Made by a program: the position numbers and the translations under genes. The notes below the pieces were generated by a model. That model was not told where the DNA came from, did no database searches, and worked only from the letters and a program-made list of their open reading frames with translations. Shown in pieces: positions 35,323-53,747 of a stretch of DNA of 64,000 nucleotides. Source of the DNA: Methanoregula formicica SMSP (GTDB lineage: Archaea > Halobacteriota > Methanomicrobia > Methanomicrobiales > Methanospirillaceae); contig NC_019943.1 of the NCBI RefSeq assembly GCF_000327485.1, positions 434,001 to 498,000 on the forward strand, written 5' to 3'. The stretch's first letter is position 1. The number at the start of each line of letters is the position of its first letter.

Positions 35323-37419
35323 TCACAAAGGAGCGTCCTGCCCGGTGCGTCGCCACTTGCCCGGTGGCACGACAATATCGAACCGTGCCCCCTTACCAAA
35401 AGTTCCGGTCTCGGTGATGGTGATGCCCGTGATCCGGAGGATCTCCCGGCAGAGGAAGAGCCCGAGGCCGGTGTGGTTGCCATAGCCCTGGTCAAAGATC
35501 CGCTCCTTCTCCTCCGGGCGGATGCCGACGCCATCGTCCTCGTACCGGATCACGAGGCTGCCTTCCCGTTCCTCTGCAGAGAACCGGACCCGGGACAGGC
35601 CCGGCCTGCCATACCGGATCGCGTTGTCGATGAGGTTGAAGAAGACCTTCTCAAGGAGCGAGTCGGCATAGATCTCGATGTCGGAAAATCCGATCTCCAC
35701 GGCGATCCCTCCGGTCAGGAGGGTGCGGTTTGCCCCGGAGATTGTTGCGTTTACATTGTGCCAGACCGGGACACCTGCGCCCACGTCCTCGAAGTCCCGC
35801 GTGAAATTGATCTCCCGGTCGATCAGGGCAGCGATCCGCTGCTCCTTTTCAATGAAGTCGCGTGCCGTATCGTTTCCGGTGTAATCGCGCGAGAGCTCGA
35901 GGTAGGTTGCAAGCGCAGTGAGCTGGTTTAAGATGTCATGGCGGGTGATGGTCGAGATCAGGGTGAGTTTATGGTGGGCGTTTGCCAGGGCATCCTCGGC
36001 CTGCTTCCGCTTGGTGAGATCCCGGGAGATGCCCATGACGCCGGTGATCGTCCCGTGCGTGTCCCGGATCGGGACAAGGAGCGTATCATGCCAGATCTCG
36101 CCGGTCGGGAGCGGAAGGCTGCCCTCGATCTTGATGGCTTCCCCGGTAGAGATGACCCGGTCCAGTGACTGGCGCTGGCTCTCCCCGACCGGCCCGGGGA
36201 AGAGCCCGGACCGCGGCCTGCCAGTGATCTCGCTCTTTTCCCTGCCGAATGCCTTCGCTGCAAAGGCGTTGACATACGTGACGGTGTCGTCCCTGTCGAT
36301 GATGAAGATGATGTCCTGTGCGGATTCGGCCAGCATCCGGTACCGCTCCTCGCTCTCTGCCAACTTCTCCCGGGACGCGGCGAGTTCGGTAAAGACAGGG
36401 TCGATCGACACGGCAAGCCGGGTGAGCTCGTCGTCCTCCCGGGATACGGTCGTATCCTCTCCGTCTGCGTCAACTCCCCGTTCTTTCACCGACCGGATGA
36501 TGGTATTGATCCGCGAGAGGATGATCCGGTCGACAAAGACAAGGATGAAGAGGGTGAGGAAGATACCGGCAACCGCGATGCTGACAAGGAATGTCGTAAT
36601 CCCGGACATTCCCGTCTGGTAGATACTGCGCGGGCTTGTTACGGCAAGGTAATAGTCAGCCGGGGGCTCCTGGTCGGCGAGCGGGAGGTACGCGGTCACG
36701 AAGTCATTGCCGGATGTCTCGACAGCGACCCGTTTTCCAGCTTCGAATTGTGCCTTTACGCCGGAAAAGGTGGCGTTGTCCGCGATCTCCGTTGCGGAAA
36801 CGATCGAGATGGTGTCCCCCGTGCGGTCCGAGAGTTCTGAGAGATAATCCCCATTGATGCGGCGTGCAAGATGAAGGCTTCCTGCGGCCGGCCCGTGGGC
36901 ATCGTCCATGAGGATGGGGTGGGATGCAAAGATGACCGGCCCCGTGGAAGCCTCCAAAATCCCGTAACTCCCGTTCTGCGAGCGGAGGGTACTCATCGCC
37001 ATGTTGAACCGTTCCATGTCGTTGACGTAGGTGCCGGAAGCGGGCTCGATCATGAGGGCGGTGTCATTGTACTGCATCGAGAAGATGAGGCCGCCGGTCC
37101 GGTTGAAGATCAGCACCCTGTCCTGGGGAAAGCGGGAGAAGAAGTCCGCACCCATGTTCTCGCGGAGCCAGTCCGGGTTTTCCCCCTCAACGAACTGGTA
37201 CGTCGACGACCAGACAGAGTAGTCACGGGTTGTTGAGAAACCCGACTTCAGATCGGTCTCGATGGCGCTCCGTGCCGTTGCAACGGCATCCTCCATCTCG
37301 ATAGTCTCCAGTTTTTTGTAGCTTGCCTCCATGGAAACGGCGGAAAAGAGGGCAACCAGGGAAAATGCAAAAATGAGAGCGATCCCGATCCCGAGCAGCA
37401 GTTTCGTCCTGAGGTCCAT
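35323..37419 (-). CDS. Membrane sensor histidine kinase with CHASE4 and PAS domains
   Basis: A 698-residue protein. TM1 (about 7-29) is followed by an extracytoplasmic CHASE4-like domain (about 55-265; DYSVWSSTYQFVEGENPDWL and DRVLIFNRTGGLIFSM are characteristic). TM2 (about 275-300) leads to a linker, a PAS domain (about 355-470, YRMLAESAQDIIFIIDRDDTVTYVN) and the kinase. The phospho-acceptor region reads ISTITRHDILNQLTALATYLEL, the methanogen HisKA-like form, and the ATPase has LIDNAIRYG (N box), DDGVGIRPEEKERIF (G1) and GLGLFLC (G2). No response regulator is adjacent. The ligand is unknown. The ATG at 37419 has no nearby alternative. Confidence 0.9.
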   Translation of the reverse strand: MDLRTKLLLGIGIALIFAFSLVALFSAVSMEASYKKLETIEMEDAVATARSAIETDLKSGFSTTRDYSVWSSTYQFVEGENPDWLRENMGADFFSRFPQDRVLIFNRTGGLIFSMQYNDTALMIEPASGTYVNDMERFNMAMSTLRSQNGSYGILEASTGPVIFASHPILMDDAHGPAAGSLHLARRINGDYLSELSDRTGDTISIVSATEIADNATFSGVKAQFEAGKRVAVETSGNDFVTAYLPLADQEPPADYYLAVTSPRSIYQTGMSGITTFLVSIAVAGIFLTLFILVFVDRIILSRINTIIRSVKERGVDADGEDTTVSREDDELTRLAVSIDPVFTELAASREKLAESEERYRMLAESAQDIIFIIDRDDTVTYVNAFAAKAFGREKSEITGRPRSGLFPGPVGESQRQSLDRVISTGEAIKIEGSLPLPTGEIWHDTLLVPIRDTHGTITGVMGISRDLTKRKQAEDALANAHHKLTLISTITRHDILNQLTALATYLELSRDYTGNDTARDFIEKEQRIAALIDREINFTRDFEDVGAGVPVWHNVNATISGANRTLLTGGIAVEIGFSDIEIYADSLLEKVFFNLIDNAIRYGRPGLSRVRFSAEEREGSLVIRYEDDGVGIRPEEKERIFDQGYGNHTGLGLFLCREILRITGITITETGTFGKGARFDIVVPPGKWRRTGQDAPL

Positions 37420-37634
37420 CCGGGTATGCTCTCCCCTGCTATCGTTTCCCGGAGCAATCCGGGCTGACTATTGACAACTATAGATAATCGTGGCGGAATA
37501 AATCCCTGACGGTTGTCGGCCTTCCCCCGACATTCAGGGCAATGACGTACTCCGGTACGGACTCCGCAACAGGCGATTGCCCGCCCATCTTCCTCCACCT
37601 TTTTACCTTCTGCAGGCAAAACGGATTATTAACG

Positions 37635-38369
37635 ATGGACAAGATCCCGATTGAGTCCCCTGACGAGGAATCCGCGATACGCTTTCGCGACTGCTTCTCG
37701 GTGCGGTACATCCAGTCGGCAGCAGTGCTCTGCCGGCTCGGGTACGGGATCGAGCAGGAAAAGAAAGGGCAGGATGCCCTCACGGAGGAACAGGTGCTCC
37801 GTCACGAGGCGTTCGTGCTGAACGCTATCCTCTCTGCCGTAGCATTCCTAGAGTCCACCATCAACGAGCTGCACGCGGATGCCGTGGACGGTGCCTACTT
37901 CTATTCTGACGAGCAGCACGAGGCGGTCCTCAAAACAATCGCGGACGGGTGGAAGAACGAGAAGAACTTCGACCGTGCCCCCCTCATCACCCGCTACCAG
38001 AAGATCCTCGCGATTGCCGGGACTGCTCCGTTCGATGAAGATGATGCGGCATTTTCGAATGTCCGGCAGTTGATCGAGATTCGCAACCACCTCATGCACT
38101 ACAAGCGGGAGTGGATCGTTATCGGCGAGGAAAAGCACCCGGGAAAAGCGGAGACCACAAGCGAACGGTTCGGGAGGATCCTGGCTAAAAAATTCGCCAT
38201 AAACCCGTTCGTTGCCAGAAACCGGCCGTTCTTCCCCGACAAGTGCCTGGGCCACGGGTGTGCGGAATGGGCCATTGTCAACAGCGTCATCTTCACCGAT
38301 GCGTTCTTCCGGAAACTGGGCCTTCCGGCTTCCTACGAGGGGATCCGCGACGAACTTTCAACGCGATAA
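37635..38369 (+). CDS. HEPN-like protein of unknown function
   Basis: I use the ATG at 37635 (MDKIPIES); the frame is open from 37542 but those residues look non-coding. The 244-residue protein is alpha-helical. Residues about 65-80 (AFVLNAILSAVAFLESTINEL) and 137-165 (NVRQLIEIRNHLMHYKREW) resemble a HEPN four-helix domain, with the Rx4H motif RNHLMH. Canonical HEPN RNases carry this motif. No MNT nucleotidyltransferase, antitoxin or CRISPR neighbour is seen. The C-terminus (KCLGHGCAEWAIVNSVIFTD) is another helix-rich part. The call is structural inference; a non-catalytic HEPN-like sensor is equally possible. Confidence 0.55.
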   Translation: MDKIPIESPDEESAIRFRDCFSVRYIQSAAVLCRLGYGIEQEKKGQDALTEEQVLRHEAFVLNAILSAVAFLESTINELHADAVDGAYFYSDEQHEAVLKTIADGWKNEKNFDRAPLITRYQKILAIAGTAPFDEDDAAFSNVRQLIEIRNHLMHYKREWIVIGEEKHPGKAETTSERFGRILAKKFAINPFVARNRPFFPDKCLGHGCAEWAIVNSVIFTDAFFRKLGLPASYEGIRDELSTR

Positions 38370-38389
38370 AAAAGGATATTCCGGCGGGA

Positions 38390-38785
38390 TCAGCGCCGTC
38401 TCTTCTTCCTGTCCGGCTTCTCGTCAGCCATTGACATCAGGTCGATGATGTAGGACCCCTCTTTGCCCACGCTGACAACCCGCTCGTCGGTTTTTGCCAT
38501 CTTCTCGAGGTTGAGCTCATAGGATCCGGGGGCAACGATCCGGATGGTCTCGACCCGGTCGTACATCTCCACCGGCTTCTTCTGCTGAGGCTCGATGACC
38601 TCCAGCACCTCTTCGTGGCTCTCCTCGGCGATCTCCTCGATCGTCTTCTCTTCGAGCACGTCCTTGTGAAGCTCCTCCTCCTTCACATAGAGGAACTTCT
38701 TGCCGCCGCAGCTCTCGCACCCTTTCAGGATCTCGGTAGACCCGTCCTTGTACTCCCGCCCGCATTTCGTGCACTTATGCGGCAT
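38390..38785 (-). CDS. Zn-ribbon protein linked to an Era-like GTPase
   Basis: A 131-residue protein. The N-terminal zinc ribbon is HKCTKCGREYKDG ... GCESCGGKKFLYV (two CxxC pairs at about residues 5-8 and 23-26). The middle is acidic and helical (EELHKDVLEEKTIEEIAEE). The C-terminal half has ETIRIVAPGSYELNLEKM and GKEGSYIIDLMSM, which matches archaeal COG3364-type proteins. The tail is basic. Its start is 7 bases from the stop of the GTPase gene; the pair is conserved in euryarchaea as I recall. Function unknown, possibly ribosome or RNA related. Confidence 0.72.
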   Translation of the reverse strand: MPHKCTKCGREYKDGSTEILKGCESCGGKKFLYVKEEELHKDVLEEKTIEEIAEESHEEVLEVIEPQQKKPVEMYDRVETIRIVAPGSYELNLEKMAKTDERVVSVGKEGSYIIDLMSMADEKPDRKKRRR

Positions 38786-38792
38786 TGCGTAA

Positions 38793-39446
38793 TCACCCGA
38801 AATACTCGATCATGGTCTCGTACAGATCTTCGACATTCTTCCCTTCGAGGCCCGAGATGGCGACCACCGGGTGCTGGGGGAAGGCGCTCCGGATCCGGGC
38901 CGGTGCCGCGTCCGTGAGGTCGATCTTGTTCGCCACGATGATGACCGGCAGGTTGCGGGCCTCGATGATCCCGATCATCATGATGTTGACCTGCATGAAC
39001 GGGTCGGTGGTGGAATCGAGCATATAGATGACCCCGTCGATATCCTCGCGGAGCCAGTGCATTGCCTCGGCAACACCTTCCGTCGCCTCGCGGGCGCGGA
39101 TGATCGCCTCGTCTTTCTCCATCCCGAACTCGAGGAACTCGTGGTAATCGATCTTGGTCGTGACACCCGGGGTATCGACGATGTCCATCGTCACCGTGTT
39201 GCCGTTTGCGCCGGAGATGATGATGTCTTCCTTTCTCCGCGCCCGCCGCGTCTCGTGCGGGATCTCGCTGACCGGGCCTATTGCATCTCCGGTCCAGTCG
39301 CGGGCAATGCGGTTTGCAAGCGTAGTCTTCCCGGCATTCGGGGGTCCGTAGATGCCGATGCGGGTCCGCTTCTTCTTGAAAAACCGGTTCAACATACCGG
39401 AGAATTTTTTCCTGACTGTCCCAAAGGTCTGAGAAAATATCTTCAC
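38793..39446 (-). CDS. Era-like small GTPase (TRAFAC family)
   Basis: A 217-residue GTPase. Visible motifs are G1 GPPNAGKTT (about 35-43), G3 DTPGV, G4 ANKIDL and G5-like ISGLEG. The N-terminal 30 residues are basic and could bind membrane or RNA. The Era/Obg-like spacing (ARRKEDIIISGANGNTVTMDIVDTPG) fits the archaeal Era-like group. No KH domain follows, so it is not bacterial Era. With the adjacent zinc-ribbon gene it may act in ribosome assembly; inference only. The ATG at 39446 begins MKIFSQTFGTVRKKFSG. A TAATAACCCTCCC element, a looser version of the promoter motif, lies on the minus strand near 39528-39541. Confidence 0.82.
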   Translation of the reverse strand: MKIFSQTFGTVRKKFSGMLNRFFKKKRTRIGIYGPPNAGKTTLANRIARDWTGDAIGPVSEIPHETRRARRKEDIIISGANGNTVTMDIVDTPGVTTKIDYHEFLEFGMEKDEAIIRAREATEGVAEAMHWLREDIDGVIYMLDSTTDPFMQVNIMMIGIIEARNLPVIIVANKIDLTDAAPARIRSAFPQHPVVAISGLEGKNVEDLYETMIEYFG

Positions 39447-39627
39447 TATCCACCTCGAAGGGAGAGCGATGTGACCGGGAACGACCGGTACACAGGGTTC
39501 ACCATAGTGTCTCTACTACTGTTTGGATGGGAGGGTTATTAGGTTTCTCGTCCCGGAGGCAGGTTTTCCGACGGCAGGGCCCGCCCGGTATTACTGCCCC
39601 GCATCGGGATCTGCAACGGCCAAATTG

Positions 39628-39635
39628 TATTTATA
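39628..39635 (+). promoter_or_regulatory. TATA box of the CBS-domain operon
   Basis: TATTTATA at 39628-39635, flanked by aaattg before and caagg after, lies 62 bases before the first CBS gene ATG at 39698. Transcription should start near 39660. The gene has a perfect ribosome-binding site, GGAGGTGA, at 39687-39694. Confidence 0.6.
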
Positions 39636-39697
39636 CAAGGGGAAGGGAGTATGCTAATTGTAATCATCAGCTAGCAAGCACTTCAAGGAGGTGACTC

Positions 39698-40264
39698 ATG
39701 AAAAAGACAAACAACACAATCCGGGTGGAGACCCATGTCCCCGTCAGGGAAGTGATGCGGAAGAACCCGATCATGATCGGTATCGAGGCAACCGCGGCAA
39801 AGGCCGCGAGGGCCATGTGCACCGAGGAGGTCGGGAGCGTCATCATCCTCAAAAACACAATGCCCATTGGCATCGTGACCGAGGAAGACCTTGCCTGCAA
39901 GGTGGTGGCAAAGGATCTGAAACCCAGCTCTGTACATGTATCTGATATCATGAGCACGCCACTCATTACGGTGAGTGCGGAGAAGACGGTAGTAGACGCT
40001 GCCACGATGATGGTGAAGCGAAAGGTGAGGAGGCTTCCCGTTGTCGACAAGGACAAGAAGGTCATCGGGATCGTGACTGTCCGGGACCTCCTTACCGTAT
40101 CCAACGAGCTCAACGAGCTCCTCAACGACATTATCGAGATCAACCGTGAGGAGATCGTAGAGCAGGGGATCTGTGCCCACTGCAGCCAGATGTCTGATGA
40201 TCTGAAGCGGGTGGACAACGTGATGCTCTGCCCCGCCTGCCGGGAGGAGGAAAATATCAGATGA
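39698..40264 (+). CDS. CBS-domain pair with C-terminal zinc ribbon
   Basis: A 188-residue protein with two CBS motifs (about 8-65, VREVMRKNPIMIG...GIVTEEDLA; and about 78-140, VSDIMSTPLITVS...GIVTVRDLL). Its C-terminal zinc ribbon is CAHCSQM...CPACREEE. CBS pairs bind adenine nucleotides (AMP, ATP, SAM), and the zinc ribbon may contact protein or nucleic acid. It is the first of five adjacent CBS genes, with a consensus ribosome-binding site GGAGGTGA. Its stop overlaps the next start by 4 bases (ATGA). No enzyme domain is attached. Confidence 0.88.
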   Translation: MKKTNNTIRVETHVPVREVMRKNPIMIGIEATAAKAARAMCTEEVGSVIILKNTMPIGIVTEEDLACKVVAKDLKPSSVHVSDIMSTPLITVSAEKTVVDAATMMVKRKVRRLPVVDKDKKVIGIVTVRDLLTVSNELNELLNDIIEINREEIVEQGICAHCSQMSDDLKRVDNVMLCPACREEENIR

Positions 40265-41010
40265 AAACAGCACAGGATTTCATCGTCGAGATCCCTGTGC
40301 TGAAACCAACCGACCGGATAACAAAGGCACGGCAGATCCTGCGCGATGACCGGTTCCGTGAAGTCTATGTTGTGGATGCAAAGAAAGGCCTCCTCGGCTA
40401 TATCGACATCACGGATGGCCTGCGGGTGACCGCAACCAAATCGGACATTACCGTCGAGGGGTTTGTGAGGGATGCCCCCGCTGCAAACCCTGCCGACACG
40501 GTTGAAAAGGTGGCAGGGATGATGAGACAGTTCCATACGGACAGCGCCGCAGTTGTCACCGGCACAAGGCAGGTGACCGGAGGCGTCCTCCTCGCGGACA
40601 TCTTCCCGGTCATCATTTCGAAAAACGAACTCCGTGGCACGGTTTCGAAGTACATGACGAAGAAGGTGATCTCAGCACAACCGTCTGACAGTATCCAGAA
40701 GGTCTACACACTGATCATGGAGAGCGGGTTTGCGGCCTTTCCCGTAGTGGAGAAGAAGAATCCTGTCGGGGTAATCTCCCGGCGCGACCTGATCAGCCAT
40801 ACCCGTGCACGCCCGGCGCTGGCACAGCACAGCAGCGCGACGGTTGGCGACCTGATGACGCGGGACGTGGTCTCGATCTCTCCGGAGGAGCCGATCAGCA
40901 CCGCGGCGGAACTGCTCGTCATGCACGATGTCAGTCTCCTGCCTGTTGTCGACAGGGACCAGCTTGCCGGGGTCGTCAACCGCCACGATGTCCTCGCTGC
41001 CCTTGCATAA
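40261..41010 (+). CDS. Four-CBS-domain protein
   Basis: A 249-residue protein formed of four CBS motifs in two tandem pairs. By eye they start near residues 4 (QDFIVEIPVLKPTD), 63 (VEGFVRDAPAANP), 126 (VSKYMTKKVISAQ) and 192 (VGDLMTRDVVSISPEEP). The end is HDVLAALA. The second motif is the most divergent and lacks the usual GIVT turn (TGGVLLADIFPVI). It overlaps the preceding gene by 4 bases and is 87 bases from the next. Such CBS-only proteins bind adenosine ligands and regulate partners, but the partner is not known. Confidence 0.86.
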   Translation: MKTAQDFIVEIPVLKPTDRITKARQILRDDRFREVYVVDAKKGLLGYIDITDGLRVTATKSDITVEGFVRDAPAANPADTVEKVAGMMRQFHTDSAAVVTGTRQVTGGVLLADIFPVIISKNELRGTVSKYMTKKVISAQPSDSIQKVYTLIMESGFAAFPVVEKKNPVGVISRRDLISHTRARPALAQHSSATVGDLMTRDVVSISPEEPISTAAELLVMHDVSLLPVVDRDQLAGVVNRHDVLAALA

Positions 41011-41097
41011 CGGGGAGGGGACGTGGCCGGAACACGCCAGGAAAACGGGATGGTTTTTCCCGGAACGGAAGAATAATCGCAATATCGGAGGAGAAGG

Positions 41098-42039
41098 ATG
41101 CACCAGAACGGCCGGGCCACAAAACAGGGCGACCGGCTCCTGAAGATGCAGGGAAAGCTCGACCGCGGGCCGGTGGAGTTCAAGTCCCGTATCGTGGAAC
41201 AGGAAGGAGAGATCATGGCGATTGCGACCCGCGATGTCATCTCGCTGCCGCAGACGCAGAGCATCATGGCGGCGGTGGAGCAGATGACGACATGCGGGTT
41301 CCGTCGGCTTCCCGTGACCGATGCCGGCACGAAGCGGCTGCTTGGGATCGTCACATCAGGAGACATCATCAACTTCCTGGGCGGGGGAGACAAGTATCAG
41401 CTGGTCCAGGTACGGCACAACGGCAACCTGATTGCCGCGGTGAACGAGGCCATCCGGACGATCATGACCCCGCAGCCCGAGACACTGAAAAGCGATGCCC
41501 GGATACGCGATGCGGTCGATGTGATAACCACAAGGAAGATCGGGGGACTGCCGATCGTGGACAAAGATGGGATCCTCCTTGGAATCGCCACAGAGCGCGA
41601 TGTCCTGTCGGTGCTTGCCTCTGGGAGGAGCCCGCTGCATGTCGAGGACGTGATGAGTTCGGCCCTCCGTGTTACCGCCCCTGACTGCCCGATCGCAACG
41701 GTCACCCGCGACATGATAAAGCACCGCTTCCGGCGCCTGCCGGTGGTGAGCGACGATGTCCTGTACGGGATCGTCACGGCAACCGACATCATGCGCTACC
41801 TCGGGAGCAGGGATGTGTTCTCGAAGATGGTGACCGGCAATGTCACCGAAGTGACAGGGCTCCCCGTCAGGAACCTGATTGCCGGGGAACTCTTCACGAC
41901 AAGCCCGGAGAAGACCATCAATGAGGTGGCCCAGGAGATGCTCAAGAAGAACATCGGAGCGCTTCCGGTCATCGAGGACTCCCGTCTTGTCGGGCTCGTC
42001 ACCGAGTTCGACCTGGTACGGGCGTTTTCCGGGGGGTGA
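41098..42039 (+). CDS. Four-CBS-domain protein with an N-terminal extension
   Basis: A 313-residue protein. A basic N-terminal 40 residues (HQNGRATKQGDRLLKMQGKLDRGPVEF) are followed by four CBS motifs: one with RDVISLPQTQSIMAAVEQM, then IRTIMTPQPETL, VEDVMSSALRVTAPD and VRNLIAGELFTTSPEKT. The gene has a good AGGAGAAGG site before its ATG at 41098, after an 87-base gap, so it may have its own promoter or be translated as part of the same operon. It overlaps the following gene by 4 bases (GTGA). The N-terminal extension could carry a binding function not present in the others. Confidence 0.86.
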   Translation: MHQNGRATKQGDRLLKMQGKLDRGPVEFKSRIVEQEGEIMAIATRDVISLPQTQSIMAAVEQMTTCGFRRLPVTDAGTKRLLGIVTSGDIINFLGGGDKYQLVQVRHNGNLIAAVNEAIRTIMTPQPETLKSDARIRDAVDVITTRKIGGLPIVDKDGILLGIATERDVLSVLASGRSPLHVEDVMSSALRVTAPDCPIATVTRDMIKHRFRRLPVVSDDVLYGIVTATDIMRYLGSRDVFSKMVTGNVTEVTGLPVRNLIAGELFTTSPEKTINEVAQEMLKKNIGALPVIEDSRLVGLVTEFDLVRAFSGG

Positions 42040-42884
42040 AGAGGGTGCTGGCACGCGACGTAATGACAACGACCGTGTTCGTTGTTGAGCCCAACGCAAC
42101 GATCGCCCATGCCCGGAACCTGATGGTCCGGCACCGGATCTCCCGCCTCCCGGTCATGGAGGATACGGCCCTTGCCGGCATCATCACCAAGAAGGACATC
42201 GCGTACCGCCTCCGGCAGGGCGAACCTGCCTGGCGCCGCCGTCCTCTCGACCGGATACCGGTGGGGGCGCTCATGACCGAACAGCCGCGCGTTGTCGCAC
42301 CTGACACCGGCGTGCGGGAGATCGCGCGGATGTTCTCACAGGAGAACATCAGCAGCGTCCCCGTTGTGGATGAAGGTGCGGTCGCGGGGATCGTAACCAA
42401 GACCGATCTGATGAAATCCGCCCTTGTCCGGGCACTCGACTGCCCGGCTAAGGACGTGATGGAGGATGTGGCAACGGTCAGCCGCTACCACTCGCTCGAC
42501 CACGTGGTCGGCGTGATGAGCGAACGACACGACAAGGTCCTGGTGCTTGACGATGACGGCACCCTTGCGGGCATCATCACCGAGACCAACCTTGCCTTCT
42601 ATGACGATGAACCGAAGATCTCGGGTGTGGTTGGAAAAGACGTAACAATACGGAGACGCGAGACAGCGGCCGGGAAAGCCGGGCAGACCCTGATGGTCAT
42701 CCCCCCGGTGGCAGCGGAGGACCTGATGACGAGCCCTGTCATCACGGTTGACGCGGACACCGCTCTTCCGGACGCGATTGCACTGATGGAAAAACACCAT
42801 GTCAACAGCCTTGTTGTCATGGACAAGAGTACCATTGCTGGGATACTGAAACGCGACGATATCATAAAGGAAGTGGCGAAATGA
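42036..42884 (+). CDS. Four-CBS-domain protein
   Basis: A 282-residue protein starting with GTG inside the stop of the previous gene (GTGA). Four CBS motifs start at ARDVMTTTVFVVEP (about 6), VGALMTEQPRVVAPD (about 76), AKDVMEDVATVSR (about 140) and AEDLMTSPVITVDAD (about 228). Between the last two, about 40 residues (IRRRETAAGKAGQT) separate the pairs and are rich in basic residues. The usual Asp of the ligand-binding (G-I-V-T/S-x-x-D) motif is kept in most repeats. It overlaps the next gene by 4 bases (ATGA). Confidence 0.86.
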   Translation: MKRVLARDVMTTTVFVVEPNATIAHARNLMVRHRISRLPVMEDTALAGIITKKDIAYRLRQGEPAWRRRPLDRIPVGALMTEQPRVVAPDTGVREIARMFSQENISSVPVVDEGAVAGIVTKTDLMKSALVRALDCPAKDVMEDVATVSRYHSLDHVVGVMSERHDKVLVLDDDGTLAGIITETNLAFYDDEPKISGVVGKDVTIRRRETAAGKAGQTLMVIPPVAAEDLMTSPVITVDADTALPDAIALMEKHHVNSLVVMDKSTIAGILKRDDIIKEVAK

Positions 42885-43657
42885 CAAAAGAAGTTTTTAT
42901 CAAAGACGTAATGGCAAAGCCCACGACCATAGCAAAATCAGCCAAGATAACCGAAGCGCTCGACAAGATGCTGAATGCCGGCCTCGACCCCCTGATTGCG
43001 GTCAACAACAATACGGTTGTCGGCACAGTCTCGCGCCAGGCGATAGCAGAGAAGCTCGGGAGCAAACAGAACTCCGGTATTGCCCCGACCGCTATCCACG
43101 TGGCGAGCGTTGTCGAGGAGGAGTTCACGAGCGTCTATCCCGATGAGAGTATCAACGTCCTGATCCCCCTTCTGCAGCAGTACAAACTGGTGGTTGTTTA
43201 CGATACCGACCACAAGCTGATCGGGCAGGTCTCGGCAGGAGACCTCCTGAAGAAGTACCAGCCCGCAGACGATCTTGACGGTGCCATCGAGAAAGCAGTG
43301 ACCATTGAGGCGGACGAGCGCGTTGTCCACCTCCGGCGCCGGATGATGGATGACAACATCACCCGGTTCGTGGTAACGGAGCACGAGAAATATACCGGTA
43401 TCGTGACCGAAACGGACGTTGCCATCGCGATGCGGGAGTTCCGCAAGCAGGTGGACGGGAACCACCAGGACCACCGGATCCGGAACCTGCTCGTCAAGGA
43501 TATCATGAGCACCCCCCTCATCTCGGTCGAGAAGACGGCGAAGGTTGCCGACGTGGTGGCAACGATGCTGAAGAAGAACATCAGTTCCATACCGGTGATG
43601 GAGAAAGGCAAGCTGGCTGGCGTTGTCACGCGACGCTCGCTCGTGAACGCCCTCTAA
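42881..43657 (+). CDS. Four-CBS-domain protein, last of the CBS operon
   Basis: A 258-residue protein with four CBS motifs starting at IKDVMAKPTTIAK (about 7), VASVVEEEFTSVYPDE (about 72), IEKAVTIEADERV (about 135) and VKDIMSTPLISVEKT (about 205). The first two are atypical: DPLIAVNNNTVVGTVSRQAI and KLVVVYDTDHKLIGQVSAGD lack the canonical terminal Asp spacing. It overlaps gene four by 4 bases. After its stop the plus strand has a T-rich run (about 43671-43681) that could terminate the operon. Confidence 0.86.
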   Translation: MTKEVFIKDVMAKPTTIAKSAKITEALDKMLNAGLDPLIAVNNNTVVGTVSRQAIAEKLGSKQNSGIAPTAIHVASVVEEEFTSVYPDESINVLIPLLQQYKLVVVYDTDHKLIGQVSAGDLLKKYQPADDLDGAIEKAVTIEADERVVHLRRRMMDDNITRFVVTEHEKYTGIVTETDVAIAMREFRKQVDGNHQDHRIRNLLVKDIMSTPLISVEKTAKVADVVATMLKKNISSIPVMEKGKLAGVVTRRSLVNAL

Positions 43658-43720
43658 AAACCGAATCTCCCTCCTCTTTTTTAAAAGGCATTATGAGGAA
43701 CATGTACGTATAATTCCCCT

Positions 43721-44917
43721 ATGACACATGACGAGACGGAAAGATCGGAACAGCGGGTCCGGGCATACCGTCTTGTCCTCCTCTTCGGCATCGTTGCTGC
43801 CCTCGGGGACGTGGTGTACGAAGGGGGCCGGAGCGTTGCCGGGCCGTTCCTGCTCGTTCTGGGTGCATCGGCCTTCATGGTCTCGTTCATTGCCGGGTTC
43901 GGCGAGTTTGTCGGGTATGCGATCCGGATTGCGACCGGCTATCTCGCAGACAAGACACGGCAGTACTGGATCTTTGTCCTTACCGGTTACCTGCTGATCG
44001 GCGCAATCCCGCTCCTTGTCCTTGCCGGCAGCTGGGAGATCGCGGCCTGCCTCCTGATCGCTGAACGGATCGGGAAGGCAGTCCGCTCCCCGGCAAAGGA
44101 CGCCATCCTCTCCCATGCAACAATATCCGTCGGGAGAGGCTGGGGATTCGGCCTCCACGAGGCCCTCGACCAGATCGGCGCCGTTGCCGGGCCGCTCCTC
44201 TTTGTTGCGGCGCTGGCTGCCAATGGGAATTACCGCGGCGGCTTTGCCCTGCTTGCGATTCCGTTTGTTCTCCTCATCATCGCGCTCGCCGCTGCCTGGA
44301 AGAGTATGCCCGACCCGCTGGCGTTCGAGGCAGGAGTCCGGGCGCCACGGATGCAGGATACAAAAGCGGGAGAAACCCGACGGCTCCGGCTCTATGCCGT
44401 TTTCACGGCCCTGACCATGGCCGGGTTCGTTGTCTTCCCGCTCCTCGCATTCCACTACAAGGCTCTCGGCATCATCCCTGATGCGGAGATCCCGCTCTTC
44501 TATGCCATTGCCATGGGTGTCGATGCGGTAGCCGCCCTGGCGATCGGTAAGGCATATGACCGGTACGGTATCGGTGTCCTCACTCTTGTCCCGGTCACCG
44601 GTATCCTGATAGCCCTCGTTGCTTTCTCCCCCTCATACCCTGTGGCTCTTGCAGGGGCGGTCCTGTGGGGCATTTCGATGGGGATGCAGGAGACCGTCCT
44701 CCGCGCTGCCGTTGCAGACCTCACTGCCATGGGTGAGCGCGGTTTTGCCTACGGTATCTTCAACACCATCTACGGCGGTGCATGGTTCGCCGGGAGCATG
44801 GCGATCGGCGCCCTGTACACGCTGGGTCCCGTATATGCAGCGGGATTCATGGTCCTGCTACAGGCCGCAGCCCTGCCGGTCCTGCTGAGACTCGTTATAG
44901 ACAAGGGACGGCCGTGA
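43721..44917 (+). CDS. Major facilitator superfamily transporter
   Basis: A 398-residue protein with about 12 hydrophobic segments. The first loop has GYLADKTRQYWIF, a G-x-x-x-D-R/K-x-x-R motif A-like sequence. LIAERIGKAVRSPAKDAIL and GWGFGLHEALDQIGAVAGPL give the AERIGK-RSPAKDA signature of a sugar-phosphate/drug-like MFS branch common in Methanomicrobiales and other archaea; the substrate is unknown. A TTTTAAAA TATA-like site at about 43679-43686 lies 35 bases before the ATG, giving a near-leaderless transcript. It follows the CBS operon in the same direction, but with its own promoter. Confidence 0.82.
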   Translation: MTHDETERSEQRVRAYRLVLLFGIVAALGDVVYEGGRSVAGPFLLVLGASAFMVSFIAGFGEFVGYAIRIATGYLADKTRQYWIFVLTGYLLIGAIPLLVLAGSWEIAACLLIAERIGKAVRSPAKDAILSHATISVGRGWGFGLHEALDQIGAVAGPLLFVAALAANGNYRGGFALLAIPFVLLIIALAAAWKSMPDPLAFEAGVRAPRMQDTKAGETRRLRLYAVFTALTMAGFVVFPLLAFHYKALGIIPDAEIPLFYAIAMGVDAVAALAIGKAYDRYGIGVLTLVPVTGILIALVAFSPSYPVALAGAVLWGISMGMQETVLRAAVADLTAMGERGFAYGIFNTIYGGAWFAGSMAIGALYTLGPVYAAGFMVLLQAAALPVLLRLVIDKGRP

Positions 44918-45028
44918 TCAACTAAAACGAGGGAACCGCGCTGGTACCCGGTATGCGGCGCCCCTGCCAGGATCCGTCACCTGTATTTACTATTCCCGCC
45001 AATAGCGAGGAAGAAGGATGATCTGCTG

Positions 45029-45874
45029 ATGGGCGACGTAACGTTCCGCACGATGACAAAAGAAGAGGTTGGCACGGCGGTCGAATGGGCCGCACGCGAG
45101 GGCTGGAACCCGGGCCTTCATGATGCGGAGTGTTTCTGGCCCGTGGATCCGGATGGGTTCTTCTGTGCTGAAACCGATGGGAAGATCGTGGGCACGGTCT
45201 CGGTCCTGAATTACGATGACCGGTTCTCCTTTGCCGGCCTCTTCATTGTCGATCCGGCCTGGCGGGCGCACGGGATCGGGATGCAGCTCTACCGGCACGC
45301 GATGCGCCATGCCGGCTCACGGGTTGTCGGGGGCGACGGGGTAGTCGCCATGGTTGACAAGTACCAGAAGGACGGGGGCCTCTTCCTGCACTATAACAAT
45401 GCCCGGTACGAAGGGATCGGCGGGGGATCAATGCCGCCCGGGCTTGTGCCGGTCCGTGACGTTGATTTCCCGGAGCTTGCAGAGTACGATGCAGCCCATT
45501 TCCCGGCACGCCGCGAGCGGTTTCTCGAGCACTGGATCAGCCAGCCCGGCCATTCCGGGCTTGCGCGGCTGAACGGGGACGGGGAAGTTATCGGGTATGG
45601 TGTGCGGAGGCCCTGCCAGACCGGATACAAGATCGGGCCGCTCTTTGCACGCGACCGGGCAACTGCGGAGATGATTCTGGACGGGCTCCGGGCCGGTATT
45701 CCCGATGAACCGTTCTTCCTTGATATTCCGGTACCAAACGAAGCTGCTGTCGGACTGGTGAAGGACCGGGGCATGAATGCGGTCTTCTTCACGGCCCGGC
45801 TCTATTCCACAAAGGACTCCGTCCCGCTCCCTCTGAATGAGATCTTTGGCGTGACAACGTTCGAGCTGGGATAA
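45029..45874 (+). CDS. GNAT-family N-acetyltransferase (double-domain)
   Basis: A 281-residue protein. Residues about 1-130 form a GNAT fold, with the acetyl-CoA loop in LFIVDPAWRAHGIGMQLYRHAM (R-x-x-G-I/Q-G-x-Q/L). The C-terminal half (GYGVRRPCQTGYKIGPLFARDRATAEMIL) matches the second GNAT-like domain of the YitH/acetyltransf_18 type. Its substrate is unknown; such proteins commonly act on amines or aminoglycosides. GGATGAT lies six bases before the ATG at 45029. It ends convergently to the membrane protein gene at 46298. Confidence 0.8.
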   Translation: MGDVTFRTMTKEEVGTAVEWAAREGWNPGLHDAECFWPVDPDGFFCAETDGKIVGTVSVLNYDDRFSFAGLFIVDPAWRAHGIGMQLYRHAMRHAGSRVVGGDGVVAMVDKYQKDGGLFLHYNNARYEGIGGGSMPPGLVPVRDVDFPELAEYDAAHFPARRERFLEHWISQPGHSGLARLNGDGEVIGYGVRRPCQTGYKIGPLFARDRATAEMILDGLRAGIPDEPFFLDIPVPNEAAVGLVKDRGMNAVFFTARLYSTKDSVPLPLNEIFGVTTFELG

Positions 45875-46080
45875 GGCCGGCTCTGTTTTTTCCCGGAACC
45901 ATTTTTTCAGCGCGATCGTCCGGCCGGTTCGATCATGTCCCTTGCCCGACTCCCCTTCGGTTCCCATGGAAGAAAAACCGTGAAAATTACGTCGTGTTCT
46001 CTACGGGAAATTGTGGTATTTTTGGCAACTGCGAAAAGGGGGGTCGGGCAGGGGCAGATCATTCTGTACCGGAAAATATT

Positions 46081-46104
46081 GCGTGAAAAAATATTTTCTC
46101 ATGC
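46081..46104. repeat. 24-bp near-perfect AT-rich palindrome
   Basis: From GCGTGAAAAAAT to ATTTTCTCATGC, 10 of the 12 base pairs match when the sequence is folded on itself. The mismatches are at pairs 3 and 7. Just upstream is another gaaaatatt (46071-46079). It lies in the middle of the convergent gap between 45875 and 46297. Confidence 0.7.
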
Positions 46105-46248
46105 AGGATTCTCTGTAAGTAGTAAACCCCGGTCCTGCTGAACGGATGACAGTTTTTCTGAAGGAAGTTCCGTGTCTTGATGTCATAATGAGGGCAGGTT
46201 TTTCCGCACCAGGTAACGTGAGATTCCGGGAAAAATTTTGTAAAGGCT

Positions 46249-46282
46249 GGTCGGGAAAAAGAAAAATGTCCCCAGCCCGACC
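46249..46282 (-). terminator. Putative terminator hairpin of the 46298 membrane protein gene
   Basis: On the minus strand just after the stop at 46298, GGTCGGG (46282-46276) pairs with CCCGACC (46255-46249) across a 20-base loop. The loop contains the minus-strand T-rich run catttttctttttcc, and archaeal termination favours such T-runs. The arm sequences are perfect over 7 bases. Confidence 0.45.
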
Positions 46283-46297
46283 CCCTTGGCCAGCGAT

Positions 46298-46888
46298 TTA
46301 CGGTACCGCAGCTGTTGCCCGGCAGGCCTGCACGCGGTCGTGAAGGAGCAGGAAAAGGACCTGGACGACAACAGCGTCCGTCAGCGCAACCTGTCCGACC
46401 TTCACCAGGAAGTCCCCGAGCCAGGCGGGGTCGGTCACGTGCAGGGACGGGTTGAAGGTGCTGACAAGCACCACGTAAGCCAGGGAGCTGGCAAGCGTTG
46501 CGATGAAGGTGGCGACGAACGGTGCGGTTGTGCGGAACCGCACCGCGAGATATGCAAACACGAAGAAGCAGGCCAGGACCCCCACCAGCTCGCTCACTAC
46601 GTTGGCAAGCCCGAGCACGTACCCGCTCTTCATGACAAGCTGCCCGCTTTCGATTGCAATGGCGTGATTCGGGTTGGCAAGGATGGTCAGGACGCCGGCA
46701 GCGATCCCGATGCACAGTGCCTCCCTCCATGAGAACGGGAGCAGTACGATAAGGAGGCAGTATGCCGCGATCACGAACTCGGCGCCGACCGGGATCGCGT
46801 ACATCTTTGCAACAACAGCCCAGGCATAGTTCACGATCGCCCCGAGGATCAGGACTGCCGCAATGATCAGGATCTTCTTATGGCTCAT
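46298..46888 (-). CDS. Small integral membrane protein (S-component-like), unknown function
   Basis: A 196-residue protein with five to six hydrophobic segments (about 5-25, 35-58, 58-75, 88-118, 123-145, 160-183). The overall size and repeated hydrophobic stretches with small polar loops look like the S component of an ECF vitamin or ion transporter, with GYVLGLANVVSELVGVLACFF in the middle. I cannot see substrate residues and there is no ECF ATPase nearby. A TATTACCCC promoter element lies on the minus strand 34 bases upstream. The stop is followed by a hairpin with a T-run. Confidence 0.6.
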   Translation of the reverse strand: MSHKKILIIAAVLILGAIVNYAWAVVAKMYAIPVGAEFVIAAYCLLIVLLPFSWREALCIGIAAGVLTILANPNHAIAIESGQLVMKSGYVLGLANVVSELVGVLACFFVFAYLAVRFRTTAPFVATFIATLASSLAYVVLVSTFNPSLHVTDPAWLGDFLVKVGQVALTDAVVVQVLFLLLHDRVQACRATAAVP

Positions 46889-46922
46889 GCAGGTTGGTCT
46901 CCGGGAAACTCTATCCGGGTGC

Positions 46923-46931
46923 GGGGTAATA
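46923..46931 (-). promoter_or_regulatory. TATTACCCC promoter element of the 46298 gene
   Basis: Minus-strand GATTATTACCCCGCACCC lies 34 bases before the ATG at 46888. The TATTACCCC nonamer is identical to those before apgM, rps15 and tRNA-Ser. Confidence 0.55.
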
Positions 46932-47109
46932 ATCCCACCGGTTTTACTTCACGCCTCTCTCCTGCCCGATTCAGGCAACAGACACGGATGCATCAGGCCG
47001 GAGAAGGGCAATCCAATCAGGATATCCATCGATCCAAATTCGGGTCCGGGCAACGTGCAGTTCTGCAGAAAACGGAGGGGGAAATCCATCCCGGTACGTC
47101 CAGCACGCG

Positions 47110-47820
47110 TTACGTGGATCCTCTCTCCTGACCTCCCCGCTCCGTCCGCTCCGTATCCGGCAGCCCGTCCCGGATGAAAATGATCCGGTCGAAATATTCC
47201 CGGTGCCAGGGCTCGTGCGAGACCATGACCACAGTCTGGCCGAGATCCTTGTTTACCGCGCGGAAGAGCTCGAGCACGGTCCGGGAATTTTCCGTGTCAA
47301 GGTTTGCGCAGGGTTCGTCCGCAAAGAGGATGGCCGGCCTGTTCACGAGAGCCCGCGCAATCGAGACCCGCTGCTGCTCGCCCCCGGAGAGCTCGTGCAC
47401 CAGGTGATCGAGCCGCCGGGAAAGCCCCACCTTTTCCAGCACTTCCGTTGCCGCGGCATAGCATGCGCTCAGAGGCCGTCCCTTCATGATCGCGGGGATC
47501 GCCACGTTCTCTTTCACGGTCAGCTCCGAGACGAGCGCATAATCCTGAAAGACATAGCCCAGGTGCATCAGCCGGAAGTGCGTCCGCTCTTCGTCCGTGA
47601 GGCGAGAAACATCCGTCCCGTCAAGAACGATCCTGCCTGAAGTGGGCGTGTCGAGCAGGCCCAGCTGGTGCAGGAATGTGGACTTCCCGCTCCCCGAGGG
47701 GCCCATGATGCCCACGAACTCGCCCCGTGCGATCGTGGCAGAGACTCCTTTGAGCGCTGCCACCTCCACGGACCCCATCCGGTAGATCTTTTTCAGGTCA
47801 GTCACTTCGATCATGGTCAT
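47110..47820 (-). CDS. MacB/LolD-type ABC transporter ATPase
   Basis: A 236-residue ABC ATPase. It begins with MIEVTDLKKIYRMGSVEVAALKGVSA, typical of the LolD/MacB family. Walker A is GPSGSGKST, the signature is ELSGGEQQRVSIARAL, Walker B is AILFADEPCANLD, and the H-loop is VMVSHE. The frame is open from 48039 but overlaps the permease far too much; the ATG at 47820 overlaps its stop by 4 bases (ATGA). It powers the FtsX-type permease next door, probably to move a protein, lipid or peptide across the membrane. Confidence 0.93.
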   Translation of the reverse strand: MTMIEVTDLKKIYRMGSVEVAALKGVSATIARGEFVGIMGPSGSGKSTFLHQLGLLDTPTSGRIVLDGTDVSRLTDEERTHFRLMHLGYVFQDYALVSELTVKENVAIPAIMKGRPLSACYAAATEVLEKVGLSRRLDHLVHELSGGEQQRVSIARALVNRPAILFADEPCANLDTENSRTVLELFRAVNKDLGQTVVMVSHEPWHREYFDRIIFIRDGLPDTERTERGGQERGST

Positions 47821-50346: not shown

Positions 50347-50413
50347 GATGGCCGCCATCTCCTCCGGAATTTCCGGCACTGAACAGGCGTCATCTCCAAA
50401 AAAGTGTACAAAC

Positions 50414-50449
50414 GTTCAATTTAATAAACATTTGTTTAGTTTATTGAAC
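50414..50449. promoter_or_regulatory. 36-bp imperfect palindrome, probable TetR operator
   Basis: Arms of 16 bases, GTTCAATTTAATAAAC (50414-50429) and GTTTAGTTTATTGAAC (50434-50449), match as an inverted repeat at 13 of 16 positions around a 4-base spacer. It lies between the divergent exporter operon (start about 50346) and the TetR gene (50512), close to both promoters. This is the usual arrangement of an autoregulating TetR repressor. Confidence 0.7.
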
Positions 50450-50511
50450 AATTATTTATTTTAAAAACCGCAACGTGAATATACACACCTTTCCCATGAG
50501 GATACAGGATA

Positions 50512-51120
50512 ATGCCACGGATCAATGCAGAATACCGCGACGAAGCGAAGAGAAAGATCATCGCGGCCGCGCTCGATATCGCCGCTACTGAAGGGTGGGA
50601 ACGGATCACGCTTGATGCGATTGCCCAGAAGGTCGGGGTCACGAAAGGAGCTTTTTACTCGTATTACTCCAACAGCACAGACCTGATGCAGGAGGTCTTC
50701 CTCGCGGTGATCCGGACGATCCGGGACCAGCTGCTCGACAGCCTTTCGGGCGATCCGGATATTCATTCAGCCCTTGACTCTGCCTCCGATTTCCTCTTCC
50801 TCCAGGCAAAACCCATGATGCCGGTGTTTATCCAGGCCATCGCCTCCAGCATTACACGCGATACGGCGTTCCGGAAAAATGTCAATCAACTCATCGATGA
50901 AAACAGCGTCCTCATCGTTGCTGCAATGAGCCGGTACCAGAAGACCGGGCAGATCCCTGATGATGTGGACATCTCCTCAGCGGTCCGGGCAATCTATGGG
51001 ATGAGCATGGGCCTTGTTATGATGACCCACGTACTGGGCAGGGATGCACGGGAGGGGAAACAGGCATGGGTGGAAGCGGCAGAGAGGGTCCTGAAGATCA
51101 ACACGGAAGAAAACCGATAA
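50512..51120 (+). CDS. TetR/AcrR-family transcriptional regulator
   Basis: A 202-residue protein. The N-terminal HTH has IIAAALDIAATEGWERITLDAIAQKVGVTKGAFYSYYSNSTDLM, the classic TetR DNA-binding domain (residues about 10-55). The rest is an all-helical ligand domain, including SIAVRAIYGMSMGLVMMTHV-like helices near the C-terminus. It is divergent from the exporter operon and the palindrome at 50414-50449 is its likely operator. It would repress the exporter and itself until a small molecule binds; inference from the layout. The ATG at 50512 is the only reasonable start. Confidence 0.88.
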   Translation: MPRINAEYRDEAKRKIIAAALDIAATEGWERITLDAIAQKVGVTKGAFYSYYSNSTDLMQEVFLAVIRTIRDQLLDSLSGDPDIHSALDSASDFLFLQAKPMMPVFIQAIASSITRDTAFRKNVNQLIDENSVLIVAAMSRYQKTGQIPDDVDISSAVRAIYGMSMGLVMMTHVLGRDAREGKQAWVEAAERVLKINTEENR

Positions 51121-51332: not shown

Positions 51333-51417
51333 GTTGAGGTAGCCAAGCCTGGTATGGCGCAGGTTTGCTAAACCTGTGTCCCGAAAGGACTCGAGGGTTC
51401 AAATCCCTCCCTCAGCG
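51333..51417 (+). tRNA. tRNA-Ser (anticodon GCT)
   Basis: Acceptor strands GTTGAGG (51333-51339) and CCTCAGC (51410-51416) pair with one G-U. The anticodon stem-loop CAGGT-TTGCTAA-ACCTG gives anticodon GCT at 51367-51369. The T-arm is GAGGG-TTCAAAT-CCCTC, and there is a long variable arm (GTGTCCCGAAAGGACTCG), as expected for a class II serine tRNA. The discriminator is G and CCA is not encoded. Length 85. It leads the rps13 operon and could be co-transcribed with it. Confidence 0.93.
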
Positions 51418-51451
51418 CTTAAAGAGATAATCTCACGATCGAGGGGATTGG

Positions 51452-51913
51452 ATGGCTCAGGAAGAAGAGATAAAGTATTTCGTAAGGGTTGGCACCACGG
51501 ATCTCGATGGTACCAAGTCCGTGAGGGTTGCCCTCACCGGCATCAAGGGTGTCGGCAGGCATACCGCCACGGTCATCACCCGCATGGCAAAGGTCGACGA
51601 GTACGCACAACTCGGCCGCATGGACGAGGCGTCCGTTAACCGCCTCCGCACGGCTGTCGAACAGTACAACAGCAAGATCCCGACCTGGATGGCGAACCGC
51701 CCCAAGGACATCTACACCGGCGAGCAGAAGCACCTCTTCGGTGCTGACGTTAACCTCACTAAAGACGAGGATGTCAACCTGATGAGGAAGATCCGCTGCT
51801 ACCGTGGCATCCGCCACGAGACCGGCCAGAAGGTCCGCGGCCAGCGCACCAAGTCCACCGGCAGGACCGGGTCGACCGTTGGTGTCAAGCGCAAGTCCGT
51901 CGGAGGCTCATAA
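51452..51913 (+). CDS. rps13: 30S ribosomal protein S13 (uS13)
   Basis: A 153-residue archaeal uS13: [20 protein letters not shown] at the N-terminus, the helix-hairpin-helix [19 protein letters not shown], and [25 protein letters not shown], the conserved C-terminal RNA-binding stretch. It binds the head of the 30S subunit. It opens the canonical archaeal block rps13-rps4-rps11-rpoD and starts 34 bases after the tRNA-Ser gene. The ATG at 51452 is preceded by GGGGATTGG, a modest ribosome-binding site. Confidence 0.97.
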
Positions 51914-51915
51914 TC

Positions 51916-52515
51916 ATGGGATACCCAGGCAAGAACCACAAGTCTTACCAGACCCCCAAGCGCCCGTGGGAGAAAGCCCGCATCGAGGCCGAGACCCGTC
52001 TCGTCATCGAATACGGTCTCCGCAACAAGCGCGAGGTCTGGAAGGCACAGGCCTACCTGCGCAAGTACCGGACCGGTGCCCGGCACCTGCTTGCGCTCAG
52101 CTCGGGCGCTGCCGATGCTGCGCTTTACGAGACCAAAAAGAACGAGCTGATCTCCTCCCTCCAGAGGAATGGGATTCTCGGGCCCGACGCAGACATCGAC
52201 GCGATCCTCTCGCTCAAGGTTCAGGCCCCGCTCGAACGCCGACTGCAGACCATCGTGTACCGCAAAGGCCTCGCCCGGTCGGTCAAACAGGCACGGCAGC
52301 TGATCACCCACGGGCACATCGCGATTGACGGCCGCCGGGTCAACATCCCCGGTTACCTTGTCAAGCGCACCGAGGAGTCCCAGATCGCCTACTTCGGCAA
52401 GTCCCCGTTCGTGTCCGACTCCCATGCGGAGAAGACCCGGATCATGAAGCCCGCGACTGCACCCAAGGCAATGCCCCAGCCCGAAGGTCACTTCCGTGGC
52501 CGGGGGAGGAGGTAA
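51916..52515 (+). CDS. rps4: 30S ribosomal protein S4 (uS4)
   Basis: A 199-residue uS4. [20 protein letters not shown] is the archaeal N-terminus. The S4 RNA-binding domain has [42 protein letters not shown], cut here to keep it short: [18 protein letters not shown]. It initiates 30S body assembly by binding 16S rRNA. It starts 2 bases after the rps13 stop. The C-terminal extension is rich in Pro and Gly. Confidence 0.97.
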
Positions 52516-52518
52516 TCC

Positions 52519-52917
52519 ATGGCAGCAAACGAGAAGGAAAAGTGGGGCATCGCCCACATCTTTGCGTCCTTCAACAACACGATCATCACCATCACCGACC
52601 TGTCCGGCGCAGAGACCGTGACCAAGTCGAGCGGTGGCATGGTCGTAAAGCAGGACAGGAACGAGAGCTCGCCCTACGCCGCCATGCAGATGGCCAGCAA
52701 CGTTGCGCAGACCGCCCGCGAGAAGGGCATTGTCGGCGTCCACGTCAAGGTCCGCGCACCCGGCCAGGGCAAGCAGCGCAGCCCCGGCCCCGGTGCACAG
52801 GCAGCCATCCGTGCCCTTGCCCGGGCCGGCATGCGCATCGGCCGTATTGAAGATGTCACCCCAATCCCCCACGACTCCTGCCGCCCGAAGGGCGGACGGC
52901 GTGGAAGGAGAGTGTGA
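52519..52917 (+). CDS. rps11: 30S ribosomal protein S11 (uS11)
   Basis: A 132-residue uS11: [22 protein letters not shown] at the start and [28 protein letters not shown] near the end, then the basic tail [12 protein letters not shown]. It lies on the 30S platform near the mRNA exit channel. Three bases separate it from rps4, and its stop TGA overlaps the rpoD start ATG. Confidence 0.97.
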
Positions 52918-53747
52918 TGGAGATCGAATTCGCCAGTCTGGACGACTCCCTCGCACGATTCACGCTCTCGGGAGCGAGCCCCGCCTTTGCCAACGCCTTC
53001 CGGCGGGCAATGATCGGTGAAGTGCCAACCCTCGCCATCGAGGATGTGCGCATCTACGACAACACGAGCGCACTCTTCGACGAGATGCTGGCACACCGTC
53101 TTGGGCTCATTCCCTTAAAGACCGACCTCTCGGTCTACTCGACCCAGGACACATGCTCGTGCGGAGGGGCAGGCTGCCCCGGCTGCACGGCCACCTACAC
53201 CCTCAGCGTCGAGGGCCCCCGGATGGTCACCTCCAGTGACCTCATCCCGCAGGATCCCGGCGCGGCGCCGGTGTATGACAACATCCCGATCGTGAAACTC
53301 ACGAAAGGGCAGAAACTCGTCATAGAGGCACGTGCCATCCTCAACACGGGGAGGGCGCACGCAAAGTGGCAGTCGACGCTCGTATGCGGGTACAAGAATC
53401 ACCCCGTCATCACGGTCAGCGACGTCTGCGACGCCTGCGGCATGTGCGTCGAGGAGTGCCCCCGCGACATCCTCGTTGCAAAGGGAAAGAAGGTCCAGGT
53501 TGCAGAAGGAAAGCTCCCCGAATGCTCCATGTGCAGGCTTTGCGAACGGGCATGCCTTGCAAGCGGTATCGGGGAAGAACCGGCAATAAAAATATCCGCC
53601 GAGCCCGACCGTTTTATCTTCGTGGTTGAGAGCGACGGGTCCCTGCCGGCAAAAGAGATCATGAACCGTGCCCTGTCGTTTATCAGGGAGCAGGCAGACG
53701 AGCTGGAACAACAGCTTGGCGAATTATCAGGGGATGAAAAGAAATGA
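52917..53747 (+). CDS. rpoD: RNA polymerase subunit D with Fe-S cluster domain
   Basis: A 276-residue subunit, homologous to Rpb3 and bacterial alpha. The dimerisation/assembly core has FANAFRRAMIGEVPTLAIEDV and HRLGLIPL. A ferredoxin-like insert has two cysteine clusters, CDACGMCVEECPRD and CSMCRLCERAC. This is a two-cluster arrangement, as in a subset of archaeal D subunits in which the Fe-S domain affects D-L heterodimer assembly. The start is the ATG at 52917 (GGAGAGTGATG); the GTG at 52914 is too close to the ribosome-binding site. Additional CSCGGAGCPGC upstream is a small Cys-rich loop. Confidence 0.96.
   Translation: MEIEFASLDDSLARFTLSGASPAFANAFRRAMIGEVPTLAIEDVRIYDNTSALFDEMLAHRLGLIPLKTDLSVYSTQDTCSCGGAGCPGCTATYTLSVEGPRMVTSSDLIPQDPGAAPVYDNIPIVKLTKGQKLVIEARAILNTGRAHAKWQSTLVCGYKNHPVITVSDVCDACGMCVEECPRDILVAKGKKVQVAEGKLPECSMCRLCERACLASGIGEEPAIKISAEPDRFIFVVESDGSLPAKEIMNRALSFIREQADELEQQLGELSGDEKK

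Follow-up and report, generated by a model that had tools for sequence, protein, structure and literature searches.

What do five adjacent genes made almost entirely of CBS domains do in the methanogen Methanoregula formicica SMSP? The genes lie within the window, i.e. the whole 64,000-nucleotide stretch of DNA that was analyzed, which is part of a closed contig of 2.82 Mb. A first-pass annotation, made from the sequence letters, had suggested that their products form a multi-subunit adenylate sensor. We arrive at another answer, and give it a probability of about 0.88: the array is a five-gene ribosome-hibernation stress operon, in which genes 2-5 encode Sri-like proteins and gene 1 encodes a likely partner or regulator of these proteins. 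This reading is based on homology, the one-to-one assignment of genes to protein families, the conserved gene order, complementarity with the hibernation factor HibA and the presence of orthologues in 70S ribosome structures.

Layout of the array and its CBS domains

All five of the open reading frames that had been annotated as starting at 39698, 40261, 41098, 42036 and 42881 are present, on a single strand and spanning 39698-43657 (Table 1). The junction spacings from gene 1 to gene 5 are -4, +87, -4 and -4, i.e. three of the four junctions are four-base overlaps, as the first-pass annotation had noted, each with the sequence ATGA. PF00571 (CBS) was the sole Pfam family found in each of the five proteins, with E-values (4e-51 to 8e-26) that are far beyond chance. 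The NCBIfam matches of the five genes were disregarded, as every one of them fell far under its cut-off. Separate CBS stretches numbered 2, 3, 4, 4 and 4 for genes 1-5 in the Pfam scan. The first CBS unit of gene 2 is weak by sequence (23.7 bits in a whole-genome CBS search) and clear in the AlphaFold model of the protein, which has four alpha/beta CBS repeats (pLDDT 87); because of this weak hit and the four repeats in the model, the earlier by-eye count of 18 CBS units (2+4+4+4+4) is correct.

Table 1. Positions in the window of the array genes, their promoter elements and neighboring features.
Feature	Position	Strand	Properties
OapC zinc-ribbon protein, divergent neighbor	38390..38785	-	Pfam OapC 4e-44; same neighborhood in 38 loci
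Era-like GTPase, divergent neighbor	38793..39446	-	Pfam MMR_HSR1; directly divergent in 33 loci
Palindrome TTGTATTTATACAA, candidate operator	39625..39638	none	Overlaps the TATA box, within a highly conserved promoter block
TATA box TTTATACA	39630-39637		Ahead of the gene 1 ATG (39698); from sequence
Ribosome-binding site AAGGAGGTGA of gene 1	39685..39694	+	Strong; from sequence
Gene 1 (Z)	39698..40264	+	188 aa; two CBS domains (Pfam 8e-26), long helix, C-terminal four-cysteine ribbon (putative zinc ribbon); constant first gene
Gene 2, CM-5 family, putatively SriA-like	40261..41010	+	249 aa; four CBS; 9znf chain 4, E 2e-32 (single sequence), 6e-97 (profile); fold match 9znf_4; Dri N-terminal half
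Gene 3, putative CM-4 family, putatively SriB-like	41098..42039	+	313 aa; four CBS; N-terminal DRGPVxFKSRI tail; 9znf chain 5, E 1e-77; MJ1225, E 3e-56
Gene 4, CM-1 family, SriC-like	42036..42884	+	282 aa; four CBS; WRRRP and basic CBS3-CBS4 loop; 9zni chain 6, E 3e-47, 1e-117 (profile); Dri C-terminal half, 9e-41
Gene 5, putative CM-2 family, SriD-like	42881..43657	+	258 aa; four CBS; 9zni/9zng chain 7, E 5e-41
tRNA-Ser(GCT), uS13, uS4, RpoD	51333..53747	+	In many relatives adjoins the array; here lies 7.7 kb downstream

The TATA box and ribosome-binding site that had been picked out in front of the array were both recovered, and both are conserved among Methanoregula relatives, with GGAGGTGA of the ribosome-binding site being invariant in 12 Methanoregula-type loci. 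The palindrome that overlaps this TATA box is a possible operator. Of the 80 named loci, 17 contain TTGTATnnATACAA, and a search for a second exact copy of it across the 2.82 Mb genome found none besides the single copy at the array promoter; the palindrome was therefore rejected as a regulon site, there being no other exact copy genome-wide. An Rfam scan of positions 36000-46000 gave no match.

Genes 2-5 and ribosome-bound CBS proteins

The best PDB chain was a different one for each of genes 2-5, and in each case the match was full-length and one to one. According to their titles, the entries concerned are M. acetivorans 70S ribosomes with SriA and SriB (9ZNF), with SriD (9ZNG) and with SriC and SriD (9ZNI), released on 2026-01-28; we used them at the level of entry titles and chain sequences, and no paper on the 9ZN entries or on SriA-D turned up in a text search. 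The uL2 and uL4 sequences of all three entries are those of 9NRI, 9NTA, 9O17 and 9OU7, which are M. acetivorans ribosome entries (PMC12605026). The entry titles and chain matches together make gene 5 SriD-like and gene 4 SriC-like; genes 2 and 3 would be SriA- and SriB-like, an assignment that rests on chain order. The A+B and C+D pairs on the ribosome mirror the gene order of the array. The first-pass annotation had left the target of the proteins open, and for four of the five families that target is the 70S ribosome, albeit in structures from another species.

Six families of CBS modules, named CM-1 to CM-6, are distinguished in the available portion of PMC13324472 (April 2026). It also describes a gene cluster of the order CM-5/4/1/2, states that dormant ribosomes of M. 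acetivorans contain CM-1 and CM-4, and traces the protein Dri to a CM-1/CM-5 fusion. In our profile searches, gene 2 homologues matched the N-terminal part and gene 4 homologues the C-terminal part of Dri, which identifies gene 2 as CM-5 and gene 4 as CM-1 and agrees with the fusion origin given in that portion of the paper; gene 3 would then be CM-4 and gene 5 CM-2, from their position in the gene order. Dri of Pyrobaculum calidifontis (9E6Q, 9E7F) is one fused 655-aa protein of two modules, whereas the array consists of separate genes and additionally contains CM-4, CM-2 and gene 1. At one locus in our collection (L049, 5082-6815) CM-5 and CM-4 are fused into a protein of 577 aa, which recalls the Dri fusion with a different partner. 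The putative hibernation cluster of PMC13324472 resembles the array in that, as far as the available text goes, the four-CBS families are clustered and HibA is absent. Four of the five array genes are members of a system whose description dates from 2026.

From these matches, each of genes 2-5 is predicted to encode a four-CBS disk homologous to ribosome-bound SriA, SriB, SriC or SriD. On starvation two sets of disks, A+B and C+D, would bind to empty ribosomes and fill the sites for tRNA and mRNA, leaving the ribosome silenced and protected until growth resumes; adenylates would perhaps tune the disks. We infer the same function for the Methanoregula proteins, and with it the exact sites occupied, the stress trigger and any modulation by AMP/ATP. 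The hetero-oligomeric ring proposed earlier gives way to a simpler arrangement in which one four-CBS chain folds as a disk, as in the model of gene 2 and in HibA, the module of which is disk-shaped and built from two Bateman modules according to the available part of PMC13324472.

The ligand motifs of the CBS units bear on a second reading of the array, i.e. that it is a general adenylate-sensing complex, similar to AMPK-gamma, that controls some enzyme of metabolism or some transporter. Every CBS unit of gene 3 (four) and of gene 1 (two) has an intact G-h-x-T/S-x-x-D motif, and gene 3 is close to MJ1225, whose PDB title is that of a putative archaeal homologue of gamma-AMPK. Against this, genes 2, 4 and 5 retain only part of the adenylate motifs, all four orthologous families occur on the ribosome, and none of the kinases, enzymes or transporters that AMPK-gamma-like regulation typically involves was a constant neighbor among the loci compared; we regard a complex of this kind as improbable. 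Each family also has highly conserved segments that lie away from the CBS ligand motif, namely WRRRP of gene 4 (no other window in that family is as conserved), QDxRIxNLLV of gene 5, DRGPVxFKSRI of gene 3 and SNVTVxGF of gene 2, and these would be compatible with binding to a conserved partner, for instance rRNA.

Adenylate sensing by the proteins of the hibernation array is nonetheless possible. An intact adenylate-type motif is present in about 11 of the 18 units (by eye, from alignments and sequences), which speaks against degraded copies, and the related HibA module binds AMP. The idea of an adenylate sensor survives to this extent, as a possible role; in the available part of PMC13324472 neither ATP nor AMP clearly altered the ribosome binding of HibA.

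Conservation of the array and its relation to HibA

Of the 247 genomes that represent the phylum, 106 have full-length CM-5; a CM-5 match of any kind at 1e-12 is present in 131 of the 247 genomes and in 50 of 96 genera. A search for the five-gene order, which the first-pass annotation had proposed, found exactly Z-5-4-1-2 (Z being gene 1) in 108 of the loci examined across the phylum; variants of the order lacked CM-5, CM-1, or both CM-1 and CM-2. The occurrence of a Z-5-4 unit without 1-2 agrees with the pairing of A+B versus C+D in the structures, with the qualification that some of the contigs concerned are short.

The CBS fold common to the five proteins could also be explained by a recent, lineage-specific duplication that left a functionless array of decaying copies. 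The paralogues within the array are only 23-31% identical, which makes the array old rather than a recent expansion, whereas orthologues from different families and genera are mostly 30-76% identical (for gene 3 the nearest named relative, a Methanoregula, reaches 94%). The reading frames are full and open and each family has its own invariant loops. Given the paralogue identities and the phylum-wide conservation of gene order, a recent duplication was ruled out, its probability being negligible. Both refuting conditions that the first-pass annotation had set, restriction to a single genome with recent duplication and degradation of the copies, fail. The array is real and, judged by its conservation, functional.

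The genomic neighborhood supports the hibernation reading, as in the Methanomicrobiales the array precedes genes related to translation (those for deoxyhypusine synthase, tRNA-Ser, uS13, uS4 and uS11) along with RpoD. In many relatives it is divergent from genes for the Era-like GTPase, OapB and OapC. In the window, genes for an MFS transporter, a GNAT protein, an ABC transporter and a TetR regulator (43721-51120) separate the array from the tRNA-Ser/uS13 operon. In other families a gene for a Pab1020-type RNA ligase follows the array (L048, 2272-3447, and 21 other loci).

HibA consists of an archaeal HPF/RaiA domain and a four-CBS module that binds AMP and occupies the tRNA sites. Its CBS module is like genes 2-5; the array, in contrast, has no HPF/RaiA domain, as Pfam detected none in the five proteins, and neither this domain nor a HibA domain was found in the host genome. 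In the same genome set as was used for CM-5, the HibA C-terminal domain (E below 1e-12) is present in 88 of the 247 genomes. PF02482 was rejected as a detector of HibA, being too weak (16 of 247 genomes, with most missed). Full-length CM-5 and HibA occur together in 4 genomes where about 38 would be expected (Fisher p = 2e-22, a value that is inflated by shared ancestry and overstates independence because the exclusion of HibA clusters by lineage). The array therefore largely excludes the alternative factor HibA, and the two have a nearly exclusive phyletic pattern. The only four genomes that have both (G009, G019, G029 and G039; loci L067, L066 and L075) all belong to family f14.

Gene 1, a CBS pair with a putative zinc ribbon

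The statement that the array contains only CBS domains holds for Pfam families and fails for gene 1, which ends in a four-cysteine, putatively zinc-binding ribbon; the gene looks CBS-only because Pfam assigns no family to this segment. The ribbon occupies residues of about 155-187 (CxxC-x15-CxxC, with C159, C162, C178 and C181), and none of its four cysteines varies among 60 homologues. In the AlphaFold model (overall pLDDT 82) a 22-residue helix joins the CBS pair to a separate small element, in which pLDDT is mostly 64-79. A comparison by sequence of the ribbon with PDB chains, including those of the Sri structures, gave no match. A distant structural relative is the CBS-rubredoxin-like protein Ta0289 (1PVM, 2QH1), which likewise has two CBS domains and a metal-binding ribbon; its identity to gene 1 in structural alignment is 21-23%, with a large whole-chain rmsd.

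Collection around CM-5 gave 61 loci, and in 59 of them gene 1 comes immediately 5' of the CM genes. In one exception (L055, genome G207) it adjoins CM-1 elsewhere in the genome; no gene 1 was found for the other (L053). A second set, of 80 named loci collected around CM-4, includes 75 that are informative, i.e. not broken by a contig end, and every one of these has gene 1 immediately 5' of its CM genes. It usually overlaps the first CM gene (median spacing -4). In a set of 20 loci, chosen from genomes without CM-5 or with CM-5 elsewhere, gene 1 adjoins CM-4 or CM-1 in 13 cases; in the other 7 there is no CM gene near it. At three loci of family f9 (L189, L197 and L198), in genomes that also have HibA, the pair of gene 1 and CM-4 is kept. 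At another locus (L061, 4206-5471) gene 1 is duplicated head to tail, giving one protein of 421 aa with two zinc ribbons.

This linkage, which outlasts the other members, and the absence of a PDB match to the ribbon make gene 1 the most persistent and least understood member of the array. Judged from linkage only, its most likely role is that of a partner or regulator dedicated to the set, and its zinc ribbon would bind RNA or protein. A more specific proposal, which we make tentatively and at clearly less than even odds, is that gene 1 is a fifth component of the Sri system, in which an adenylate-binding CBS pair and a zinc ribbon would load, release or sequester SriA-D, or anchor them on a ribosomal subunit, and so would link energy state to hibernation.

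The role of gene 1 may instead be unrelated to hibernation, since the protein is absent, by sequence, from the Sri structures and some homologues without CM genes lie beside radA. It would then be an unrelated neighbor, e.g. a CBS-zinc protein linked to redox or DNA repair that is carried along by the operon structure. The gene 1 profile matches 236 of the 247 genomes, a wider range than that of the array, and the relationship to Ta0289 also fits such a role. At seven loci (L190, L191, L192, L195, L196, L199 and L200), in families without CM genes, the homologue adjoins a convergent gene of about 315-328 aa, which is radA at L190 and L192. The near-constant position ahead of the first CM gene and the retention of gene 1 with CM-4 or CM-1 after loss of other members both argue the other way, and we consider an unrelated neighbor rather doubtful.

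Gene 1 looks to be the new part of the array, as it seems to fall outside the structures and the phylogeny published so far; the cluster in the available portion of PMC13324472 comprises four-CBS modules, and that portion makes no mention of a two-CBS zinc protein of this type. The analysis turns an unexplained array of CBS genes into a testable ribosome-hibernation operon in methanogens. If gene 1 acts as the energy switch, this would explain how the CBS hibernation factors of archaea are switched between their active and inactive states, a point left open in the HibA paper.
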